Source: Syntrophobacterales bacterium (GTDB lineage: Bacteria; Desulfobacterota; Syntrophorhabdia; Syntrophorhabdales; Syntrophorhabdaceae). From it: a stretch of DNA of 35,699 bases. Position numbers and translations under genes: made by a program. Where the stretch lies: NCBI GenBank assembly GCA_031274925.1, contig JAISPL010000037.1, positions 65,231-100,929 on the forward strand, given 5' to 3'. Below, piece after piece: positions 2,394 to 32,862 of this stretch; within the stretch, counting starts at the first letter, position 1; each line of letters starts with the position of its first letter. The notes beneath the pieces were generated by a model that did not search any database, was not told where the DNA came from, and saw only the letters and a program-made list of their open reading frames with translations.

Positions 2394-4868
2394 ATGCACA
2401 CCTCGGTTGTTACTGTACCCATAGAAGAAGAAATGAAGCGATCATACATGGATTATGCCATGAGCATAATCATCGGGAGGGCACTGCCGGACGTGAGAGA
2501 CGGCCTCAAACCGGTCCACCGGAGAATTCTTTATGCCATGTATGAGCTGGGTAATACCCACGACAAGCCGTATAAGAAATCAGCCAGAGTGGTGGGGGAT
2601 GTGATAGGTAAGTTTCACCCTCATGGCGACCAAGCTGTTTATGACGCCATCGCCCGTATGGTGCAAGATTTCTCCATGAGGTATCCCTTAGTCGACGGCC
2701 AGGGCAACTTCGGCTCTATTGATGGGGACGCCCCGGCAGCCATGAGGTATACCGAGGTAAGACTCTCAAGGATCGCGGAAGAAATACTCAAGGATATCGA
2801 AAAAGAAACAGTCGGGTTTAGGCCGAATTATGACGAGTCTCTTGTCGAACCGGTCGTTATGCCCACCAGGATTCCCAACCTCCTCGTAAACGGTTCTTCA
2901 GGTATCGCCGTAGGTATGGCAACCAATATCCCCCCTCACAACCTGACGGAAGTGGTGAACGGCATCGTTGCATATATAGACAATCCAGAGATTACCCTTG
3001 ATGAGCTTCTGACTTATGTCACGGGTCCGGATTTCCCAACCCAGGCCATTATTTACGGCAGGCAGGGCATAAGAGAGGCATACGAGACAGGAAGAGGACA
3101 TATCACTCTCAGGGCCCGGGCATCAATCGAAAAGAAGAAGGACGGAAGGGAAATGATAGTCGTTTCTGAGATTCCTTATCAAGTCAACAAGCTGCGACTC
3201 ATTGAGACAATCGCTGATCTTGTAAATACGAAAAAAATTGAAGGTGTATCAAATCTGAAAGACGAGTCAAACAGGGAAGGGATACGGCTCGTTATCGAGT
3301 TGAAACGGGGTGAGATGGGACCGCCCATTCTCAATCAGCTGTATAAACATACCCAGCTGCAAACCACCTTCGGAATCATATTCCTCACCATCGTAAACAA
3401 CGAGCCAAAAGTACTCAGTTTGAAAGAATTGATCACGGAATTCATCCTCTTCAGGAAAGAGGTAGTGACAAAAAGGTCGACCTTCGAGCTCAATAAAGCC
3501 TTGGGCAGGCTCCATATCCTAGAAGGTCTGAAGATAGCTCTTGAGCATATCGACGAAGTAATCGCCCTTATTAAACAGTCGAAAAACACCCAGGAAGCCA
3601 GGGTCTCCCTGATTGACCGCTTCGGCCTGTCAGAAAAGCAAGCTACGAGCATTCTCGAAATGCGCCTCCAAAGGCTTACAAATCTCGAACAGACGAAAAT
3701 CCTCGAAGATTACGAAAATACCTCCAAAGAGATTGCGCGGCTAAGAGAAATACTTGCCAACGAGAAGCTTCTCCTTGATATCGTGAAGGCAGAGCTTATT
3801 GAAGTCAAAGATCGATACGGAGACAAACGGCAAACCGAGATCGTGGATCAGGTGCCGGATATCACTATTGAGGACATGATCAAAGACGAGGAGGTCGTGG
3901 TTACTATTACCCACAGGGGCTATATCAAGAGAACGGCCCTTGACCAGTACAGAGCCCAGCTTCGCGGAGGAAAAGGGAAAATAGGAATCGTGGTGAGGGA
4001 CGAGGACTTCGTTGACCAGATCTATACAGCCTACACCCACGACCACTTCATATTTTTTACAAATGCGGGGAAGGCTTATACCATCAAAGTCCATGAGATT
4101 CCAGAAGCTCCAATGACGTCCAAGGGAAAACCCCTGATCAATCTCATCAACGCGGAGAAAAATGAGAGGATAACGGCCATAGCCCACACGCGGGAGTTTG
4201 AAGAGGACAAGTATCTCCTTCTCGTAACCAAGAAGGGGCAGGTGAAAAAGATAAGCCTGAGCGCCCTCAGCCGCATGAGATCCACTGGCCTCATAGTAAT
4301 GAAGCTTCCGGAAGATGACAACCTCATGGGCACCCTCCAGACGGACGGAAACAATGAGGTTATGGTGGCCACAAAGAAGGGCAAATCAATAAGGTTCCAC
4401 GAGAGCGATGTGAGACCCATGGGAAGGGTTGCTTACGGAATAAGAGGGATCAGGCTCAGGAAGAATGACGAGGTCGTCTCGGTCGAGATAGTCGACCGGG
4501 ATTGCAATGTTTTTACTGTTACAGAAAAGGGCTACGGAAAAGTCTCACCCTGTTCCGAATACAGAAACCAGACCAGAGGCGGCACCGGCATCATAAATGT
4601 GCGTTGCGGCGCCAAGAACGGCGATGTGGTCGGTTTAAAAAAGGTGACTGAAGCAAGTGAGATCATCCTCGTTACCGACACGGGGAGGACCATAAGGTTC
4701 AACGCAAAAGACATGCCCGTCCAGAAAAGGGGCGGCCTCGGCGTAAAACTGATGGATCTTGCAGGGGACAAGACGATAAGCTCTGTAGCCATTGCAGGAG
4801 AGGAAGGCCCTCAGGCCCGGGACGAAACTCCCGTAAAAGATAACGGACCTGAGACCACCGCTGAGTGA
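2394..4868 (+). CDS. gyrA: DNA gyrase subunit A
   Basis: GyrA is the breakage-reunion subunit of the type II topoisomerase that introduces negative supercoils, acting with GyrB as A2B2. At 824 aa it is of normal length. The active-site tyrosine is Tyr119 in '[10 protein letters not shown]', and the DNA-binding helix '[12 protein letters not shown]' is present. The GyrA box needed for DNA wrapping reads QLRGGKG (residues 522-528), one residue off the usual QRRGGKG, which identifies gyrase rather than ParC. Six beta-pinwheel repeats follow, then an acidic tail. The ATG is preceded by GGGAGG at 2382-2387 with good spacing. Residue 80, equivalent to E. coli Ser83 in the quinolone pocket, is glutamine, while the Asp87 equivalent (Asp84) is kept. 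gpsA follows 93 bp downstream. Confidence 0.97.
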
Positions 4869-15946: not shown

Positions 15947-16104
15947 ACATACAAATAAAGGTCCAAGCGCCGGATCTCCTTGCAGTGACTGACGTAATTG
16001 ATGTTATGTCTTTTATTCGTGATAAGGGGTGGATCCTAAAGGAGGCAGACATATCCATGGAGGCAGAGGAGGAGGAGGAGGAGGAAGAAGAAGAAGAAGA
16101 ATGA
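15943..16104 (+). CDS. Small acidic protein with a 12-residue glutamate tail
   Basis: This 53-aa protein starts at the ATG of an ATGA overlap (15943), preceded by the strong GGAGGAAGA. A longer upstream frame exists but lacks a ribosome site. Residues 1-38 look like a small alpha/beta fold ('VQAPDLLAVTDVIDVMSFIRDKG', part). The C-terminus is GAGGCA followed by twelve Glu codons (six GAG then six GAA). Its stop overlaps the next gene's start by ATGA. Such a dense negative tail is typical of DNA mimics and basic-protein chaperones; the position near Gam would suit an anti-defence role, but this is inference. Confidence 0.55.
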   Translation: MNIQIKVQAPDLLAVTDVIDVMSFIRDKGWILKEADISMEAEEEEEEEEEEEE

Positions 16105-19873: not shown

Positions 19874-20020
19874 GTTCCGCCAAACTTACACAAACCTACA
19901 AGAATCTGATCGAATCTGACCAGTGACGGGTTTGCTATTGACTTCCTGCTTCCCCGAGGCCGCCTTCACCTTGAGCTTTTGCCCAAGGCCAGCGCCTTCC
20001 TCTCCGCAGGCTGACACGGT
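19874..20020 (-). ncRNA. Predicted omega (reRNA) region at the tnpB 3' end
   Basis: TnpB proteins are guided by an RNA whose scaffold overlaps the tnpB 3' end and whose guide is copied from DNA just outside the element. Here tnpB stops only 12 bp from the element boundary, so the scaffold must overlap the coding sequence. The guide would be the complement of 19858-19873 and would match the uninterrupted phage locus. The 5' limit is a guess, and no transcript evidence exists. Confidence 0.35.
19881..19920. repeat. Tandem 10-bp repeats at the IS607 end
   Basis: CAAACTTACA and CAAACCTACA (9/10 identical) are followed directly by AGAATCTGAT and CGAATCTGAC (8/10 identical). The four units are in exact 10-bp register, that is, on one face of the helix. 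They are 7 bp from the element boundary and overlap the tnpB stop. They are likely TnpA-binding subterminal repeats. Confidence 0.5.
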
Positions 20021-21112
20021 GGAACTCACCGCCATATTCTTCAAATTGATTGCCGCATTTACGTCACGATCATGGACATTACCGCAGACCGGACACGTCC
20101 ACTTACGCACCGACAACGGCAGTTTATCTAATTTGTTCCCACAAGCCGAACACACCTTGCTGCTGGCAAAAAACCTGTCAGCAACAACTACATTTCCGCC
20201 CCGCATCGCGGTCTTATACTCCAGTTGTCTGCGGAACTCGAAGAACCCCATGTCGGCAATGGAACGGGCAAGATGGCGGTTCTTCTCCATGCCCCGCACG
20301 TTCAAGTCCTCAATACCTATGGTATGGAACCGACATGTGAGGTTGGTCGTGAGCTGGTGCAAGGCGTCCTTACGGATATTGGCGATACGGTAATGCAGCC
20401 TTGCCAGCTTCTGTTTGGCCTTACGCCGATTGGCCGATCCCTTCTGTTTGCGGCTCAAGCTGCGGGAAAACCGCCGCAGGCGACCTAATAGCGCCTTATG
20501 AGGTTTGGGGCCAGAGATTGTCTCTCCCGTCGATAGTGTTGCCAAGAATGTTATGCCCAGATCCACACCAACCGCGCCTTGGTTTTCGGTTTTGGGAAGG
20601 TGGATGGAAGTATCAACAGTGATACTGACATACCAGCGGTCAGCTAAACGGGAGATTGTGGCCGACATGATCTTACCTGTAAATCGCAAGCCTTCAAACA
20701 TCCGTACCCAGCCCAAGCGGGGAATATTGAGGCGTGAACCGGCTACCTTGAACTGGTCATTGGTGAGACTGAACCTGTCATGGATACCTTTCTTGCGGAA
20801 CTTGGGATAATGGGCACGCCCTGCAAAGAAGTTCTTGAAAGCGTCGCCCAACTGGATAATCGCCATCTGCGGCGCATTTTTGGTGACTTCCAGCATCCAC
20901 GGAAACTGTTCGCCTTTGATGGCGTTGAGTCGGCGGCGCAGCGCATACTGTGACGGCTTGGGTAATGTGTTGTCGGTTTTCCATGCCTCGTACTGGCGTG
21001 TCCATTCGGTAAGTGCCCAGTTATAGGCAAAGCGAGCCGTACCTGCTGCACGAGACAGGTAGGTGCGCTGCACGTTGTTCGGGTTGAGCGCGATCTTGTG
21101 GGCGGTTAGCAT
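19886..21112 (-). CDS. tnpB: RNA-guided endonuclease TnpB
   Basis: TnpB is the small ancestor-type RNA-guided nuclease of IS200/IS605 and IS607 elements; it cuts vacated target sites and favours retention of the element. The 408-aa protein has an N-terminal helix-turn-helix-like region (1-120) and a split RuvC nuclease with Asp184 ('VGVDLGI'), Glu268 ('IGIEDLNV') and Asp350 ('HDRDVNAA'). A four-cysteine zinc finger (C321, C324, C340, C343) lies between the last two. All catalytic residues are present, so it should be active. It overlaps tnpA by 7 bp. The basic C-terminal 40 residues lie over the predicted guide-RNA scaffold and are likely less constrained as protein. Confidence 0.93.
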   Translation of the reverse strand: MLTAHKIALNPNNVQRTYLSRAAGTARFAYNWALTEWTRQYEAWKTDNTLPKPSQYALRRRLNAIKGEQFPWMLEVTKNAPQMAIIQLGDAFKNFFAGRAHYPKFRKKGIHDRFSLTNDQFKVAGSRLNIPRLGWVRMFEGLRFTGKIMSATISRLADRWYVSITVDTSIHLPKTENQGAVGVDLGITFLATLSTGETISGPKPHKALLGRLRRFSRSLSRKQKGSANRRKAKQKLARLHYRIANIRKDALHQLTTNLTCRFHTIGIEDLNVRGMEKNRHLARSIADMGFFEFRRQLEYKTAMRGGNVVVADRFFASSKVCSACGNKLDKLPLSVRKWTCPVCGNVHDRDVNAAINLKNMAVSSTVSACGEEGAGLGQKLKVKAASGKQEVNSKPVTGQIRSDSCRFV

Positions 21113-21732
21113 TGAGACGCCTCTACGGCTTGGCGCACACCATCAAGCAGTTTCTGGTTTTTACGTGAGCGGCTGCCATATAGCCGGGCCGAGAATACGG
21201 TGATGATCTCCAATACGTCCTTGGCAAGATCTTCTTCAAATGTGGTATCTTCACCTTGATTCAAAATCACCACTTCCACGCCTTTGGCTTCGCAGATGGC
21301 AAATACCAATTCAGCGCCAAAACGCAGCAACCGATCTTTGTGTGTTATGACTAGGCGACCAATATGACCGTCGATGATGGCTTCCAGCAACCGCTTCAAG
21401 CCCTTCTTGTGGTAATTCATCCCAGACCCAAGATCGGATACAACCTCAAATGTCCAGCCCTGACGAGCACAGTAGAGTTCAAGTACTTGCTTTTGACGCC
21501 CAAGATCATCCTTCTGGTCATGGCTGGAAACACGGGCATAGGCGATGGTGCGGCGGTTGGCCTCATTATTCGTGTGAAATAATTCTGGCTTGAGTTTTGC
21601 CAGATCGTAGCGACGGTGACCGCCTGCCGTGTGTTCAGCGGTAAGTCGGCCAGACGCCTCCCAGCGCCGTAACGTGGTGATCGACACGCCAAGCGCCCTG
21701 GCGGCTTCTCCTATACCAACAAATCTCTCCAC
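21106..21732 (-). CDS. tnpA: IS607-type serine recombinase transposase TnpA
   Basis: The 208-aa protein joins an N-terminal MerR-like helix-turn-helix ('GIGEAARALGVSITTLRRWE', residues 6-25) to a small serine-recombinase domain. The nucleophile is Ser69 in 'TIAYARVSSHDQ', with 'GSGMNYHKKGLKRLL' and 'LVITHKDRLLRFG' following as in IS607. This order, DNA-binding first and catalysis second, is the reverse of resolvases and is diagnostic for the family. The frame opens with GTG; an ATG two bases upstream is out of frame. A promoter with 17-bp spacing lies directly before it. Confidence 0.93.
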   Translation of the reverse strand: MERFVGIGEAARALGVSITTLRRWEASGRLTAEHTAGGHRRYDLAKLKPELFHTNNEANRRTIAYARVSSHDQKDDLGRQKQVLELYCARQGWTFEVVSDLGSGMNYHKKGLKRLLEAIIDGHIGRLVITHKDRLLRFGAELVFAICEAKGVEVVILNQGEDTTFEEDLAKDVLEIITVFSARLYGSRSRKNQKLLDGVRQAVEASQC

Positions 21733-24140: not shown

Positions 24141-25605
24141 AACCCCTAAACTCACCACCGACGAGATTGCAACAACCGAAAAAGACATTTTTCAGGATTA
24201 TATGGGCAAGGGCCAGATTAATCCGGATAAGGTCCTAAGGCGAGAATCGGGCGGCAGTGGTATAGAGCTATATGAGGATCTGCTCCGTGACGATCAGGTA
24301 GGGTCTAATCTGCAGACTCGCGCCCTTGCCGTGGTTGGCAAAGAATGGGACGTAACGCCAGCCAGCGATAAAAGGATAGACCAAAGAATAGCCGATTATG
24401 TAAAAGAGGTTTTACTCGCATGCAATTACGACGACGCGAGGAAGACCCTTCTCTCCGGTATCGTCCTTGGTTATAAAGTCTCGGAGGTGATGTGGGAGTA
24501 CTCAGAAGGTCAGGTCTGGATTAAAGAGATTATAGGCAAGGCGTCGAGGCGCTTTACGTTTGATCTTGAGCGCAACTTGAGGCTCCTCACAGTCCGGGAC
24601 ATGTTCGAGGGCGAGGCGGTACCGCCCTGTAAATTTATTGTCTATGCCAACGCGTCTGATAACGGCTCGCCCTTCGGTGATGGTCTGGGCAGATCCCTCT
24701 ATTGGCCCGTGTGGTTTAAAAAAAATGGCGTCAAATTTTGGATGACCTTTGCCGATAAATTTGCCAGCCCCACCACCATCGTAAAATACCCGCCCGGCAC
24801 ACCAAAGGAGCAGCAGCATGATCTTCTATGGGCCGCAGACGCCATCCAGCAAGAATCGTCCATCGCGATACCAAATAACGTAGTAATTGAACTCCTTGAG
24901 GCAACACGTTCAGGCACGGTCAACGCCTACGAGAGTCTATGTAATTTTATGAACGCTTCCATCTCCAAGGTCATACTCGGTCAGACATTAACGACCGAGA
25001 TCGGCAGCAAAGGCAGCTACGCAGCCTCTCAAACCCATAATACCGTCCGCGAGGATTACATCAAGGCGGACGCGGACAGCCTGTCAGCGGCCCTTAACAG
25101 TCAGTTGGTGCGCTGGATCGTGGATTATAACTTTTCGGGCGTAACCAAGTACCCCAAAGTATGGATCAGGACCAGCCCGGATAAGGATTTAAAGTTACTC
25201 GCGGAGCGAGACAAGATACTCGCGGACATGTGCGTCCCCATAGGGACTAAGTATTTCTACGACACATATAACATTCCCAAGCCCGATGACGGCGAGGAGC
25301 TGATAAACCCACCCGCTTCGGACAACCCTTCAAAAAACCAGGACGGCTCCTCTTTCTCCGAAGGGTCGGCGTTTGCCGGACTCATCGCCGCGCAAAAGGA
25401 TATAGACGCCCTTGCAGACGACGCCCTTAAAAAAGGCGCCATAGGCTTCGGTTCGCTTCAGGGGATAGTCGATTCCGCAGAGTCCTATGACGATCTGCAG
25501 ACTAAGCTCGGAGAGGCATACGCCGGTATCGATATGGAGCGGTTTCGTGAGGTATTGGCGCAGGCTATTTTTATGGCCGATCTAAAAGGGAGATCTCTCG
25601 AATGA
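24133..25605 (+). CDS. Portal protein (Mu gp29-like, DUF935)
   Basis: The portal forms the dodecameric ring through which DNA enters and leaves the head. The ATG at 24133 follows GGGAGG and gives 490 aa; the longer in-frame start at 24073 lacks a ribosome site. Family-typical stretches include 'YEDLLRDDQVGSNLQTRALA', 'ILLGYKVSEVMWEY'-like 'IVLGYKVSEVMWEYSEG', and 'ILGQTLTTEIGSKGSYAAS'. The stop overlaps the F-like gene by ATGA. No signs of damage. Confidence 0.9.
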   Translation: MPETPKLTTDEIATTEKDIFQDYMGKGQINPDKVLRRESGGSGIELYEDLLRDDQVGSNLQTRALAVVGKEWDVTPASDKRIDQRIADYVKEVLLACNYDDARKTLLSGIVLGYKVSEVMWEYSEGQVWIKEIIGKASRRFTFDLERNLRLLTVRDMFEGEAVPPCKFIVYANASDNGSPFGDGLGRSLYWPVWFKKNGVKFWMTFADKFASPTTIVKYPPGTPKEQQHDLLWAADAIQQESSIAIPNNVVIELLEATRSGTVNAYESLCNFMNASISKVILGQTLTTEIGSKGSYAASQTHNTVREDYIKADADSLSAALNSQLVRWIVDYNFSGVTKYPKVWIRTSPDKDLKLLAERDKILADMCVPIGTKYFYDTYNIPKPDDGEELINPPASDNPSKNQDGSSFSEGSAFAGLIAAQKDIDALADDALKKGAIGFGSLQGIVDSAESYDDLQTKLGEAYAGIDMERFREVLAQAIFMADLKGRSLE

Positions 25606-26732
25606 TTGATTTTACGCTCCTTCCCTTCGACGAGGCAATCAGGTTCTTCCGGGACAAAGTACCCCTCACACCGGATAAGTACAGACAGCTCACCGACGAG
25701 GCAAAAGCTAAAGCGTTTACGGCGGCTGGCGTTGCCCGTATGGACGTGCTCACCGACCTTTATACCGGTATTGATAAGGCCATAGCGGACGGTACGACAT
25801 TCGCGGATTTTAAGAAATCAGTTAAAGAAACCATTGAGAAACGCGGGTGGGGCGGCATGAACCCGCACCGCTTAGACACGATCTATCGGACTAACATTCA
25901 AGGGGCGTATCAGGCGGGTCATTACGCACAGCAGACCGAACTGACCGGCAATCGTCCTTATTGGCAGTACGTGGCCGTAATGGACGGCAGCGTCAGGCCG
26001 CTGCACGCCATAATGCACCGCAGAGTTATGCGCCATGACGATCCCTGGTGGCGTGAGAACTATCCGCCCAACGGCTTTAGGTGCAGGTGCACGGTGAGGA
26101 GCTTATCCCAGAGGGAGCTTGACCGGGAGAAGCTTAATGTTGATAAGAATCCGATCCCTGCCGCGGATCCAGGCTTTAGAACCAACCCAGGAGAAGCTAT
26201 GGGCAAGGCGCTTACCGACGAGCAATTTTTGAGGCTCCAAAGCGATCCAAAACGCTGGACCCCGCTCATCAAAAAAACATTTGAGACCTACGGGCGACCA
26301 AAAGCGCGAGATATTACGGACTATATGGCTACATCCATCCCGCTATGGCCCAGAGGTAAAAAAGCGGCCGAGATGTATAAATCCGGGATGGCCGGGCAAG
26401 CCCTTACGGACCATGTCGGCGATCCGCTTATACTCAACGATGTGTTGATTGATCACCTTAATCTCGATGGAAGGGAACGGTTTTTGCCCTTCATAGCCGA
26501 CGTAGTACAAAACCCCTATGAGATATGGCTGCAAGCCGAAAAAGAAAAGGATACGGGCAGGATAATGCTCAGAAAGCGATATATATCCGTTATTCGTGCA
26601 GGCAAGGACAGACCTGTTCTTCTCGTCGCGGAGAGCTCCCGGGGTCAATGGACAGGCTATACGATGCTGTACACGGATGACGTCGGATATTTGGATCGAA
26701 TCAGAATGGGGATTTTGCTCTATGGCAGGTAA
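25602..26732 (+). CDS. F-like head morphogenesis protein fused to a PBECR-type nuclease domain
   Basis: Residues 1-190 are an SPP1 gp7/Mu F minor head protein: 'TIYRTNIQGAYQAGHYAQQ', 'VMDGSVRPLHAIMHRRV' (from residue 127) and the Cys pair in 'NGFRCRCTVRSLSQRE'. The C-terminal 90 residues ('FLPFIADVVQNPYEIWLQAE', 'RIMLRKRYISVIRAGKDRPV', 'WTGYTMLYTDDVGYL') match the phage Barnase-EndoU-ColicinE5/D-RelE-like nuclease domains (PBECR2) known at the ends of such head proteins. The domain may act on host RNA after injection or in competition between phages. The two halves are joined by a linker around residues 190-280. It is coupled to the portal by ATGA. Confidence 0.82.
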   Translation: MIDFTLLPFDEAIRFFRDKVPLTPDKYRQLTDEAKAKAFTAAGVARMDVLTDLYTGIDKAIADGTTFADFKKSVKETIEKRGWGGMNPHRLDTIYRTNIQGAYQAGHYAQQTELTGNRPYWQYVAVMDGSVRPLHAIMHRRVMRHDDPWWRENYPPNGFRCRCTVRSLSQRELDREKLNVDKNPIPAADPGFRTNPGEAMGKALTDEQFLRLQSDPKRWTPLIKKTFETYGRPKARDITDYMATSIPLWPRGKKAAEMYKSGMAGQALTDHVGDPLILNDVLIDHLNLDGRERFLPFIADVVQNPYEIWLQAEKEKDTGRIMLRKRYISVIRAGKDRPVLLVAESSRGQWTGYTMLYTDDVGYLDRIRMGILLYGR

Positions 26733-26842: not shown

Positions 26843-28402
26843 GTGGACGATTTTAAGATAACTGTTGATATCCAGGACAAGGAGCTTAAGGATCTCCTTA
26901 CTGCTCTGACCAAAAGGGCAACGGATCTCAAGCCGGCCATGAAGGAAGTAGGCGATATAGTGCGATCCTCCATTATCCGGAACTTTGAGGCAGGCGGCAG
27001 GCCGGAGCGATGGCAGCCGAACGCGCTGTCCACGATCATGGCAGGAAGAGGACGATCCAGGACATACACGCTAAAAGGTATAGTCAGAAAGCCCCAGGAA
27101 CGGAAGCTACAGAAAAGCAAAGTACTGATGCGTACAGCCCGCCTTAGAAACTCCATCAAACATAAGGCCTACAGCGACAGAGTGGAGATTGGCACTAACG
27201 TGATATACGGACGCATCCATCAGCTCGGCGGCAAAGCAGGCAGTGGTCTTAAGGTGACGATCCCCGCAAGGCCGTACCTCATGGTACAGGACGAGGACTG
27301 GCCGGAGATCAGGACCGCCATAGAAAACTATCTCATCGACCAGGAGGACATAATGCAGATCCCAGTATTCCGGACGGGCACACATACCGATTCTAATGGT
27401 AATAAGCGGACATGGACCGAGGCCGATCTCGACCGTATGGTCGCATCCTACGATCCCAAGCGGCACGAAGCGCCTGTTGTCATCGGCCATCCGACCGATA
27501 ACGCGCCAGCGTGGGGATGGGTAGAGGCTCTAAATCGGACGGGAGATACCCTCTATGCTAAGCCTAAAGATCTGGTCCCGGAGTTTGTCGATATGGTCAA
27601 AAAAGGCATGTTCAAGAAGCGCTCTATCAGCCTCTATGGAGACGGAACCCTGCGGCATATAGGTTTTCTGGGGGCGTTGCCCCCGGCGGTAAAGGGCCTG
27701 CCAGACATACAGTTCGGAGAAGGTGAAGCAATAACGATTGAATTTGAAGAACACAAACAACACGAAGGAGGTAGAAAGATGGGAGTAATGAACGCAATTG
27801 ATTGGATTAAGCAACAGGCGGGCAAAATGGGAGTGACCATTGCGGATCCCCCGGAGTCCCCACTTGGAGCGACATTCAGCGAGGCCGAGCTTCAAATCAA
27901 AATTGAGGCCGCAAGGAAGGAGGAGCGGGATAAGGCGGCGCAAGAGTTCTCCGAGGCCGGTAATGCCCGAGAGAAGGATATCAAGGCTCGGGAGGAGAAG
28001 ATCAGACAGCGGGAGATAAAGGCCAAAAAAGATGACATAGCCGCTTTCTGCGAGGCCCTTCAAAAAGAAGGGACGCTAACCCCCGCCATGATGAAAGTAG
28101 GCATGGGCATGACCAATTTCTTAGAGTCGATTGCCGCGATTGAGACCACGATAGAGTTCGGAGAGGGTGACGAGAAGAAGAAACAGGCGCCAATAGAATT
28201 TATGCAGGCATTCCTCCGAGGTTTGCCCAAGGCCATAGAATTTAAGGAAGTGGCTACGGGTGACAAAGATGCGGGCGCAGGCGGAGACGCCGCGAAGCGG
28301 GAGAAACTCATCAGTGATTTTACGGAGAAAAATCCCAAGGCATCGTACAAGGACGCGGTGTTACACGTATCAAAAGAACACCCGGAACTTTTTCGGGACT
28401 AA
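26843..28402 (+). CDS. Fused G-like virion morphogenesis and I-like protease/scaffold protein
   Basis: The frame of 519 codons opens with GTG after AAGGA. Residues 1-170 match the Mu G tail-completion/virion morphogenesis family ('MKEVGDIVRSSIIRNFEAGG', 'LMRTARLRNSIKHKAYSD', 'IPARPYLMVQDEDWPEIR'). Residues 171-519 match Mu I, the head protease with a scaffold C-terminus ('IPVFRTGTHTDSNGNKRTWT', 'APVVIGHPTDNAPAWGWV'). These are separate genes in Mu. The joint reads GAC ATA ATG, so a one-base change would restore the TAATG overlap used elsewhere in this phage. Either a fusion protein is made, or the internal start is used, or both. Confidence 0.8.
   Translation: MDDFKITVDIQDKELKDLLTALTKRATDLKPAMKEVGDIVRSSIIRNFEAGGRPERWQPNALSTIMAGRGRSRTYTLKGIVRKPQERKLQKSKVLMRTARLRNSIKHKAYSDRVEIGTNVIYGRIHQLGGKAGSGLKVTIPARPYLMVQDEDWPEIRTAIENYLIDQEDIMQIPVFRTGTHTDSNGNKRTWTEADLDRMVASYDPKRHEAPVVIGHPTDNAPAWGWVEALNRTGDTLYAKPKDLVPEFVDMVKKGMFKKRSISLYGDGTLRHIGFLGALPPAVKGLPDIQFGEGEAITIEFEEHKQHEGGRKMGVMNAIDWIKQQAGKMGVTIADPPESPLGATFSEAELQIKIEAARKEERDKAAQEFSEAGNAREKDIKAREEKIRQREIKAKKDDIAAFCEALQKEGTLTPAMMKVGMGMTNFLESIAAIETTIEFGEGDEKKKQAPIEFMQAFLRGLPKAIEFKEVATGDKDAGAGGDAAKREKLISDFTEKNPKASYKDAVLHVSKEHPELFRD
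27353..28402 (+). CDS. I-like head protease from an internal start
   Basis: AGGAGG (27342-27347) lies 5 nt before an in-frame ATG at 27353, exactly where the I-like protease begins. The 349-aa product would carry the protease domain (about 1-135) and the scaffold domain. In Mu-type phages the protease cleaves scaffold and itself during head maturation. The strong site inside a continuous frame suggests that this protein is made in its own right as well as, or instead of, the fusion. Confidence 0.65.
   Translation: MQIPVFRTGTHTDSNGNKRTWTEADLDRMVASYDPKRHEAPVVIGHPTDNAPAWGWVEALNRTGDTLYAKPKDLVPEFVDMVKKGMFKKRSISLYGDGTLRHIGFLGALPPAVKGLPDIQFGEGEAITIEFEEHKQHEGGRKMGVMNAIDWIKQQAGKMGVTIADPPESPLGATFSEAELQIKIEAARKEERDKAAQEFSEAGNAREKDIKAREEKIRQREIKAKKDDIAAFCEALQKEGTLTPAMMKVGMGMTNFLESIAAIETTIEFGEGDEKKKQAPIEFMQAFLRGLPKAIEFKEVATGDKDAGAGGDAAKREKLISDFTEKNPKASYKDAVLHVSKEHPELFRD
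27779..28402 (+). CDS. Scaffold protein (Z-like) from a second internal start
   Basis: AAGGAGGT (27765-27772) sits at ideal spacing before an in-frame ATG at 27779. The 207-aa product is the C-terminal part of the I-like protein: 'MGVMNAIDWIKQQAGKMGV', then a charged coiled coil ('AGNAREKDIKAREEKIRQRE') and a helical tail. In Mu the scaffold Z is likewise the separately translated C-terminus of I. It should fill procapsids and be removed by the protease. Confidence 0.7.
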   Translation: MGVMNAIDWIKQQAGKMGVTIADPPESPLGATFSEAELQIKIEAARKEERDKAAQEFSEAGNAREKDIKAREEKIRQREIKAKKDDIAAFCEALQKEGTLTPAMMKVGMGMTNFLESIAAIETTIEFGEGDEKKKQAPIEFMQAFLRGLPKAIEFKEVATGDKDAGAGGDAAKREKLISDFTEKNPKASYKDAVLHVSKEHPELFRD

Positions 28403-30075: not shown

Positions 30076-30504
30076 ATGTACTCTACCATTGACGATATCA
30101 AAAAACTGCTCCCCGAGGGCGCGCTTATCCAGCTAACCGATGACGAAGATACCGGAGCGCCGGTAATTGCAAGGATAGACGAGGCAGTAGTGCAGGCCGA
30201 CGCAGAGATCAACGCGTACTGCGCGGGCAGGTACATAGTCCCGTTTGCGACCACACCCGACGTGATCAAAAAATGCTCAGTCGATATCGCGATTTATAAC
30301 CTATACAGCAGACATGTGGAGGAGATTCCGGAGACAAGGGCTGACCGGTATAAAAATGCGATACGTCTCCTTGAGGCCATAGCTAAGGGGACGATTTCTA
30401 TCGGGGCGGCGGAGGAACTGTCTACAAATAACTCCGACAGCGCGGTAAACACAAAAACAAACGATGACCGTACCTTTACAAAAGAAAGTCTGGCGGGGTT
30501 CTAA
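30076..30504 (+). CDS. gp36-like head completion protein (DUF1320)
   Basis: The 142-aa protein opens 'MYSTIDDIKKLLPEGALIQL' and continues 'VIARIDEAVVQADAEINAYC' and 'VDIAIYNLYSRHVEEIPETR', the DUF1320/Mu gp36 pattern. Such proteins sit at the head-tail connection. It abuts its neighbours on both sides (30075/30076 and 30504/30505). Confidence 0.85.
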   Translation: MYSTIDDIKKLLPEGALIQLTDDEDTGAPVIARIDEAVVQADAEINAYCAGRYIVPFATTPDVIKKCSVDIAIYNLYSRHVEEIPETRADRYKNAIRLLEAIAKGTISIGAAEELSTNNSDSAVNTKTNDDRTFTKESLAGF

Positions 30505-30942
30505 ATGGACTTTACGGATATTGAAGACAGGATAAAGACTGCGATCAGGACGGCTATACCCTACGCCAAACTTGTTGAGACCTACGCGGGTCAGCTTGAG
30601 GGCGATATGGAAAAGCTTCCCATGTCGTTCCCTGTAGTCTTCGTGGCTTACGGCGGCTCCGCTCTCGACCTGGTCGATGGTCAGAGCTATAACGACGCCC
30701 CCACATTCTCGATCGTCGTCGCGGCCAAGGACTTGCGAGGAGCGAAGGATCTGCGCGAAGGCGAACATGGCTGCTACCAGATGATAAAGGGTGTGCTCGG
30801 CGCAATAGCGGGACAGACTTTAGGACTCGACATATGGCCTCTTAAACCGGTCCGGGTCAATCTTATCTTTATATCCAGGATCATGGCAGCCTACGGCATA
30901 GATTTCGAAACGAGTTTTGATAGCATCTATCAGGAGGGATAA
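30505..30942 (+). CDS. gp37-like phage protein (DUF1834)
   Basis: The 145-aa protein resembles Mu gp37: 'MDFTDIEDRIKTAIRTAI', 'LPMSFPVVFVAYGGSALDL' and 'TFSIVVAAKDLRGAKDLR'. It is presumed to be a head-tail joining or tail-terminator-type protein. It starts directly after gp36 and overlaps the next small gene by TAATG. In contractile Mu the sheath gene follows close by; here a tail tube follows instead. Confidence 0.82.
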   Translation: MDFTDIEDRIKTAIRTAIPYAKLVETYAGQLEGDMEKLPMSFPVVFVAYGGSALDLVDGQSYNDAPTFSIVVAAKDLRGAKDLREGEHGCYQMIKGVLGAIAGQTLGLDIWPLKPVRVNLIFISRIMAAYGIDFETSFDSIYQEG

Positions 30943-32191: not shown

Positions 32192-32563
32192 ATGGATATA
32201 TCAGGATTACAAAGAGAGACCTTCGAGGTGTGGACGCCGTTTTTGGATGGGAAGGTAAAAATAAGGTACGTATCAAGGGCTGAACTGTTTACTATCAACA
32301 GTCAGGCTACACGTAATACATGGGATAAAGGCCATCAGCTGCAAAAGGAACACGATCCGATAAAAGCCGATATCTTTCTGGGCAGGGCCGCGGTCAAAGG
32401 CTGGGAAGGATTTACCATGAACGGCGAGGCCTATCCTTACACAGAACAGAACTGCGACTTTTTGATGGGTAAGTGGGTAGATTTTGCGCGATTCGTCAAC
32501 GAGATCTGTATCGATCTTCAGGCCCTCATGGATGCGGAGGCGGCGGCAGAGGAAAAAAAGTAA
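32192..32563 (+). CDS. Tail assembly chaperone, short form (G-like)
   Basis: The ATG at 32192 follows AAGGAGGAG; an in-frame ATG 20 codons upstream lies inside the tube gene without a site. The 123-aa protein ends 'AEEKK' at TAA (32561-32563). It lies between tube and tape measure, where the G/GT chaperones that coat the tape measure are found. It includes 'IRYVSRAELFTINSQATRNT' and 'WVDFARFVNEICIDL'. The last sense codons form a slippery site. Confidence 0.75.
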   Translation: MDISGLQRETFEVWTPFLDGKVKIRYVSRAELFTINSQATRNTWDKGHQLQKEHDPIKADIFLGRAAVKGWEGFTMNGEAYPYTEQNCDFLMGKWVDFARFVNEICIDLQALMDAEAAAEEKK

Positions 32564-32862
32564 TTGACTACATCAGGGCACGGCTCGACTACCCTGGTGT
32601 GTCTTGCGAGATCTGCGAGGAGGCCCGCGAGATTGACGGTGATATACCGGATTGCGAAACTGCAAAGGGCTGCATTATCCCGCCTCTCACCGATCGGGGG
32701 AAAAGAATAATGGCAATGAGAGAAAAGCTCATAAGACTCAAGGACCTCGTCGATCCCGCCACGATCCTTGCGATGTACGGAGCTACATTGAACGATCTGG
32801 AACTGCTTTCGAAAGTTGAAGAGCTGATTGAATCAGTAAAGGGGACAGATGCCGGACGTTAA
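32192..32862 (+). CDS. Tail assembly chaperone, frameshifted long form (G-T-like)
   Basis: A -1 shift on A AAA AAG (32554-32560) changes the next codon from TAA to GTA and opens a 100-codon extension starting 'VIDYIRARLDYPGVSCEICE' and ending at 32862. The fused product is 223 aa. The extension has no usable start of its own until about 32710. This is the well-known layout of long-tailed phages, in which a minor frameshift product binds the tape measure. The extension contains four cysteines (SCEIC, DCETAKGC). It overlaps the tape measure gene by 14 bp. Confidence 0.8.
32554..32560 (+). promoter_or_regulatory. Programmed -1 frameshift site A_AAA_AAG
   Basis: The heptamer A AAA AAG is in the correct phase for tandem slippage, and it is directly followed by the zero-frame stop TAA. 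It is the same heptamer as in E. coli dnaX. An upstream GAGG-like stretch (32549-32552) is too close to act as the usual stimulator, and a downstream structure was not established. Confidence 0.75.

Follow-up and report, generated by a model that had tools for sequence, protein, structure and literature searches.

Does the tail assembly chaperone gene of this prophage encode one protein, or does a share of its ribosomes shift frame at the last codons and add a second domain? The question arises within a 35,699-nucleotide stretch of a Syntrophobacterales contig (JAISPL010000037.1, positions 65,231 to 100,929), referred to here as the window. The 0-frame of the chaperone gene ends in GAG GAA AAA AAG TAA, so A_AAA_AAG at 32554-32560 lies in the slippery phase. 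A reading made from the sequence alone had placed this heptamer in the right phase within 32540-32600, followed directly by TAA, with the -1 frame running on for 100 residues, and all of these points hold. The TAA comes straight after the heptamer at 32561-32563, and the -1 frame is open over 32560-32859, begins GTA ATT GAC TAC (VIDY), reads VIDYIRARLDYPG and overlaps the start of the tape-measure gene at 32849. The second frame had also been described as having no start of its own, which is nearly right; the exceptions are GTG codons at 32473 (within the chaperone gene) and 32599 and a first ATG at 32710, downstream of all four cysteine codons of the extension.

Table 1. Features of the chaperone locus and its neighbors (window coordinates)
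Feature	Position	Strand	Evidence or remark
Mu gp36-like head-tail gene	30076..30504	+	PF07030, E 1.6e-34
Mu gp37-like head-tail gene	30505..30942	+	PF08873, E 3.8e-19
Tail tube (major tail) protein, 351 aa	31122..32177	+	named by position; phrog_290 'minor tail protein', E 1.6e-9
Short tail assembly chaperone (G-like), 0-frame ORF, 123 aa	32192..32563	+	RBS AAGGAGGAG, start ATG 32192
Predicted frameshift fusion (GT-like), 223 aa	32192..32862	+	inferred from its parts
SD-like GGAGG, candidate stimulator, 13 nt 5' of heptamer	32536..32540	+	family-wide anti-SD signal
Slippery heptamer A_AAA_AAG	32554..32560	+	in phase in the 0-frame; in-phase heptamer there in 28/31 non-redundant relatives
-1 frame extension (T-like domain), 100 codons + stop	32560..32862	+	stop codon 32860-32862
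0-frame stop TAA, abutting heptamer	32561..32563	+	
Hairpin, 8 nt 3' of heptamer	32569..32601	+	10-bp stem, 13-nt loop, -13.0 kcal/mol
Tape measure protein, 908 aa	32849..35575	+	phrog_3779, E 1.5e-6

The arrangement very probably reflects -1 programmed ribosomal frameshifting in a tail assembly chaperone, as in lambda G/GT. At the TAA at 32561 most ribosomes would terminate and release the 123-aa short form. Some would pause with two lysyl-tRNAs on A_AAA_AAG, between an upstream SD-like contact and the downstream hairpin, and these would slip back one base and read the -1 frame to give the 223-aa fusion. Slippage, and any efficiency assigned to it, is a prediction from the nucleotide sequence. 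By analogy with lambda gpG/gpGT, the expected binding partner of the N-part is the 908-aa tape measure. At about 0.15 nm per residue, a tape measure of this size would correspond to a flexible tail of about 136 nm. The C-part has a possible metal site of four cysteines and would recruit the tube protein.

The family and position of the gene agree with the G/GT-type frameshifted chaperone that had been proposed, as does the retention of a heptamer in 28 of 31 relatives. A search of PHROGs places the 0-frame product with phrog_313, Tail assembly chaperone (E 2.7e-11), and among 19 homologues 16 match phrog_313 and two match phrog_389. The gene (32192) stands between those for the tube (31122) and the tape measure (32849). 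A Foldseek search of the chaperone against the PDB gave no match at E 0.001. In a second-look fold comparison the best match was YqbN (PDB 3klu), a tail chaperone of the YqbN/XkdN type; the predicted fold of the 0-frame domain resembles it at a middling Z of 5.8 (rmsd 4.4, 86 residues aligned) and an identity of only 9%. No lambda-type chaperone was among the matches listed in that comparison.

The chaperone alone as a query found no match in viral contigs or genome contigs, so relatives were sought with the tube protein and an alignment of it. There were 33 viral loci, 29 of which reach the junction (the contigs of L027, L037, L039 and L050 stop short of it). An in-phase heptamer is present in 27 of the 29, or in 24 of 26 after removal of near-duplicates (L023, L035 and L043). 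The addition of L006, L056, L057 and L060, which have a heptamer, and of L004, which does not, gives the total of 28/31. The heptamers of L042 and L043 were overlooked by the automatic pair finder and read separately, L058 is identical to L025 at the junction, L059 has no chaperone downstream of the tube gene, and L005, a fragment with stops, was excluded from every count. With tblastn against 50,697 phage records, the chaperone matched 99 records, those listed being 25-28% identical and mostly of T5-like size; the extension and the tube protein had no match in these records. One of the 99, H2, was rejected as a model, because its second chaperone ORF has a start of its own and lies in the +1 frame.

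On its own the heptamer is weak evidence, as it is recreated in 27% of synonymous shuffles of the chaperone gene, the encoded peptide being E-K-K. The 24 plus-strand prophage genes contain 15 in-phase heptamers in 6568 codons, of which only the one at 32554-32560 sits at the stop of its own gene and leads into a -1 frame of such length (100 codons). Of the 31 non-redundant relatives with contigs that extend to the junction, 28 have an in-phase X_XXY_YYZ heptamer there, against an expected share of about 20% from synonymous shuffles. These heptamers are of five sorts (A_AAA_AAC, A_AAA_AAG, G_GGA_AAC, A_AAA_AAT and T_TTT_TTC), and it is therefore the property that is kept, not the sequence. Substitutions relative to four relatives cluster at third codon positions, those of the 0-frame before the site and those of the -1 frame after it. 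As far as comparison of relatives can speak for a predicted frameshift site, this conservation, rather than the heptamer itself, is the strong evidence that settles the matter.

The three relatives without a heptamer (L004, L028 and L048) each have a different junction. In L004, from the same genus, CAA AAATGA replaces the heptamer at 1867-1890, with the ATG serving the -1 frame, and the hairpin is kept; this prophage looks decayed, having a tape-measure ORF of just 197 aa. In L028 both chaperone domains lie in one 265-aa open frame (3697-4494), and no heptamer marks the border between them; this locus is a natural, permanent in-frame fusion. In L048 (IMGVR_UViG_3300045286_000168) the junction at 4639-4650 reads TCC TTT CGT TGA and the +1 frame runs on, so the chaperone junction would need a +1 shift. 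TCC_TTT_CGT is reportedly the influenza +1 site, as named in the title of PMC3498833. No relative was found for the L048 site, which is represented by one contig only; a DNA pattern for it matched one contig, where by eye the gene was nuclease-like and unrelated.

Two further elements flank the heptamer. Upstream, the pairing with the anti-SD over positions -20 to -7 has a mean duplex energy of -7.35 across 29 loci versus -5.59 in synonymous shuffles (p 3e-5); p-values here overstate independence and strength because the loci are related. Eight control windows gave no comparable SD-like signal, though one reached p 0.03. The GGAGG of the window is not significant by itself, with 19% of shuffles equally strong. 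Downstream, the hairpin arms are TACATCAGGG (32569-32578) and CCCTGGTGTG (32592-32601), and the first 50 nt 3' of the heptamer have a z of -2.6 in the window, with 1% of synonymous-codon shuffles as stable. Over the first 60 nt the mean z for 27 loci is -1.29 versus synonymous shuffles, compared with -0.04 to -0.41 at 15 other offsets covered by all 27. The structure is not universal, as z exceeds 0 in 7/27 loci at 50 nt and in 4/27 at 75 nt.

The stem itself was compared across the window and 18 relatives, 19 loci in all, picked for ungapped equal spacing. Changes on both sides of a pair number 19, against 9.6 in shuffled alignments (0/500 shuffles as high), and 69.5% of stem cells are paired, against 31.6-46.8% when the stem is slid. 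Pairs 19-45 and 22-42 switch from A-U to G-C or C-G, and their 3' sides are third codon positions of Gly and Pro codons. In eight loci including the window, chosen as the most alike in the stem, 92.5% of stem cells are paired. The conclusion that the hairpin is under selection, with a stem that covaries across the family, is well supported. A pseudoknot between the loop CTCG and a downstream CGAG was considered and rejected, as by eye it is not kept in L004. Rfam had no match within 32400-32800.

The lambda heptamer is GGGAAAG, and the sequence-only reading had seen a dnaX-type heptamer in its place. That observation is borne out, and the likeness to dnaX extends to a candidate SD-like element, a hairpin and a sole tRNA-Lys with anticodon UUU. 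The shifted product of dnaX is the shorter one, whereas here it is the longer. E. coli dnaX likewise combines A_AAA_AAG with one tRNA-Lys; its SD-like element is spaced at 10 nt versus 13 nt for the candidate here, and its simple downstream stem-loop has 11 bp versus 10 bp (PMC5009743, in part). The same part of that source gives as a condition for dnaX slippage that the sole tRNA-Lys reads both AAA and AAG. The host genome (97% complete) has 44 tRNA matches, and the only lysine tRNA among those found has anticodon UUU; none with CUU was seen. A bolder reading, in which a full dnaX-style cassette would bring the extended form to tens of percent, compared with a few percent in lambda, and the extension would be a metal-binding, tube-recruiting domain, is tentative and rather unlikely. 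If it were true, tail assembly would need a different chaperone ratio.

Could the second frame be expressed in another way? The -1 ORF might be translated separately, by reinitiation after the TAA at 32561 or from a GTG, so that no fusion is made. The ATGA overlap of L004 supplies an ATG for the second frame, and the window has an AGGA 9 nt 5' of an ATT in the -1 frame (by eye) as well as the GTG at 32599. In phage JBD67 (Beetrevirus), gp39 and gp40 overlap by 4 nt at ATGA; it differs from the window in that its chaperone is followed by a 47-aa ORF with this overlap and that the only in-phase chaperone heptamer is CCCTTTC. Against separate translation, the open -1 frame lacks any ATG, GTG or TTG ahead of extension codon 16, the first cysteine, in at least 14 of 29 loci, and possible starts are scattered in position across loci. 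Reinitiation also needs no in-phase heptamer, yet 28/31 relatives keep one, and this explanation is considered quite improbable.

RNA polymerase slippage on the A7 run (32553-32559) would place the shift in the mRNA, where an added base would create a fusion message with no ribosomal slip. The run of seven As is there to support it, and polymerase slippage is said to serve a T6SS gene (PMC4256274). Four relatives (L021, L034, L044 and L045) carry G_GGA_AAC, with three As only, and the selected SD-like element and downstream hairpin fit ribosomes instead; seven As are also short for this process, leaving polymerase slippage highly improbable. The two ORFs could also be what is left of a single gene that an indel split as the prophage decayed, in keeping with the IS607-type element inside this prophage and the decayed appearance of the related L004. 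The relatives already refute a broken gene, barring convergence, given that the two-frame layout recurs in 28/31 of them and that third-position bias is seen in both frames. The preferred reading is a -1 ribosomal frameshift that yields the chaperone and its extended form.

The extension that this frameshift would add has cysteine codons starting at 32605, 32614, 32653 and 32671 (residues 16, 19, 32 and 38 in the window). All four cysteines are kept in 21 of 25 aligned extensions; L051 and L052 retain the third and fourth and have an HxH nearby, and L026 and L049 are without the set. The cysteines form a possible zinc or other metal site. An AlphaFold2 model of the extension is a small helical domain (pLDDT 87), for which Foldseek found no match in the PDB or BFVD at E 0.001. 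At E 0.01 no PHROGs or Pfam entry matched any of the 25 extensions, and the extension profile found nothing among PDB sequences. With no PHROGs or Pfam match, annotation of these tail modules, which occur in many environmental viral contigs, loses about half of one assembly protein.

How much of this is new? The frameshift in the lambda chaperone gpG/gpGT is established (PMC5009743, in part, citing Levin 1993, Xu 2004 and 2013), and the locus described here is like it, as far as that part goes, in that the chaperone gene lies between tube and tape measure, has its -1 shift close to the 3' end and gives a short and an extended product. Unlike lambda, this locus uses A_AAA_AAG, has a hairpin and an SD-like element with signs of selection and encodes a four-cysteine extension. 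PaMx73 and other D3112-like Pseudomonas siphophages share the Mu-like genome and have a tail that is flexible and does not contract, together with T TTT TTC as a putative -1 heptamer in their chaperone ORF (PMC4378225, in part). The combination of a Mu-like siphophage and a chaperone -1 site is therefore not new, because PaMx73, as presented in that part, already offers both. The Mu-like phage KS10 was reported without a recognizable frameshift site (PMC2628397, in part), and PRFect already takes the RBS and 3' structure as features of frameshifts, phage chaperones included (PMC10885494, in part). A literature search by title and abstract start, covering few subscription papers, gave no account of this clade or of a cysteine site in a chaperone extension. 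What is well supported is a real, conserved -1 site predicted to yield a chaperone and an extended form, of a kind already known; the fresh parts are the well-supported hairpin and the unannotated cysteine-rich extension. The relatives also offer a single frameshift site in about 30 natural versions, with five heptamer sorts and differing hairpins, which can be used to ask how phages tune the chaperone ratio.

The frameshift had also been taken as support for a siphovirus tail on a Mu-like genome. The Mu-like genome stands, with a DDE transposase (rve, a match below its curated cut-off), its AAA partner, Mor, GemA, the Mu portal, F, gp36 and gp37. The frameshift does not by itself prove a siphovirus tail, because such shifting is widespread among long-tailed phages and occurs in P2 and Mu, whose tails contract (PMC5009743, in part). 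The tail type is probably right on other evidence drawn from gene content and kinship. The tube gene follows directly after gp37, with no sheath-size gene between them in the window. Phage_sheath_1 (PF04984) was found in 0/16 related records, several of them fragments, and Baseplate_J (PF04865) in 0/16, some of them fragments and with the host contig ending 124 bases past the tape measure. The closest phages by portal are Pseudomonas Mu-like phages, which are described as siphophages (PMC4378225, in part). The order from portal to tape measure is similar to that of JBD67, whose portal is 33.5% identical.

Other features stand elsewhere in the window. A single 519-aa ORF at 26843-28402 joins a Mu gpG-like domain (Phage_tail_S) to an apparent protease/scaffold and contains internal ATGs at 27353 and 27779, both with a good SD sequence; JBD67 has separate genes for the two. 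The Mu F-like head protein (25602-26732) has a C-terminal PBECR2 nuclease-like domain (E 2e-22). The IS607-type element lies on the minus strand at 19886-21732, where it separates the terminase genes from the lysis region, and encodes a TnpB with a Cas12f1-like domain and a MerR-resolvase TnpA. At 16053-16104, GAGGAG-type repeats encode a poly-Glu tail in a small ORF.
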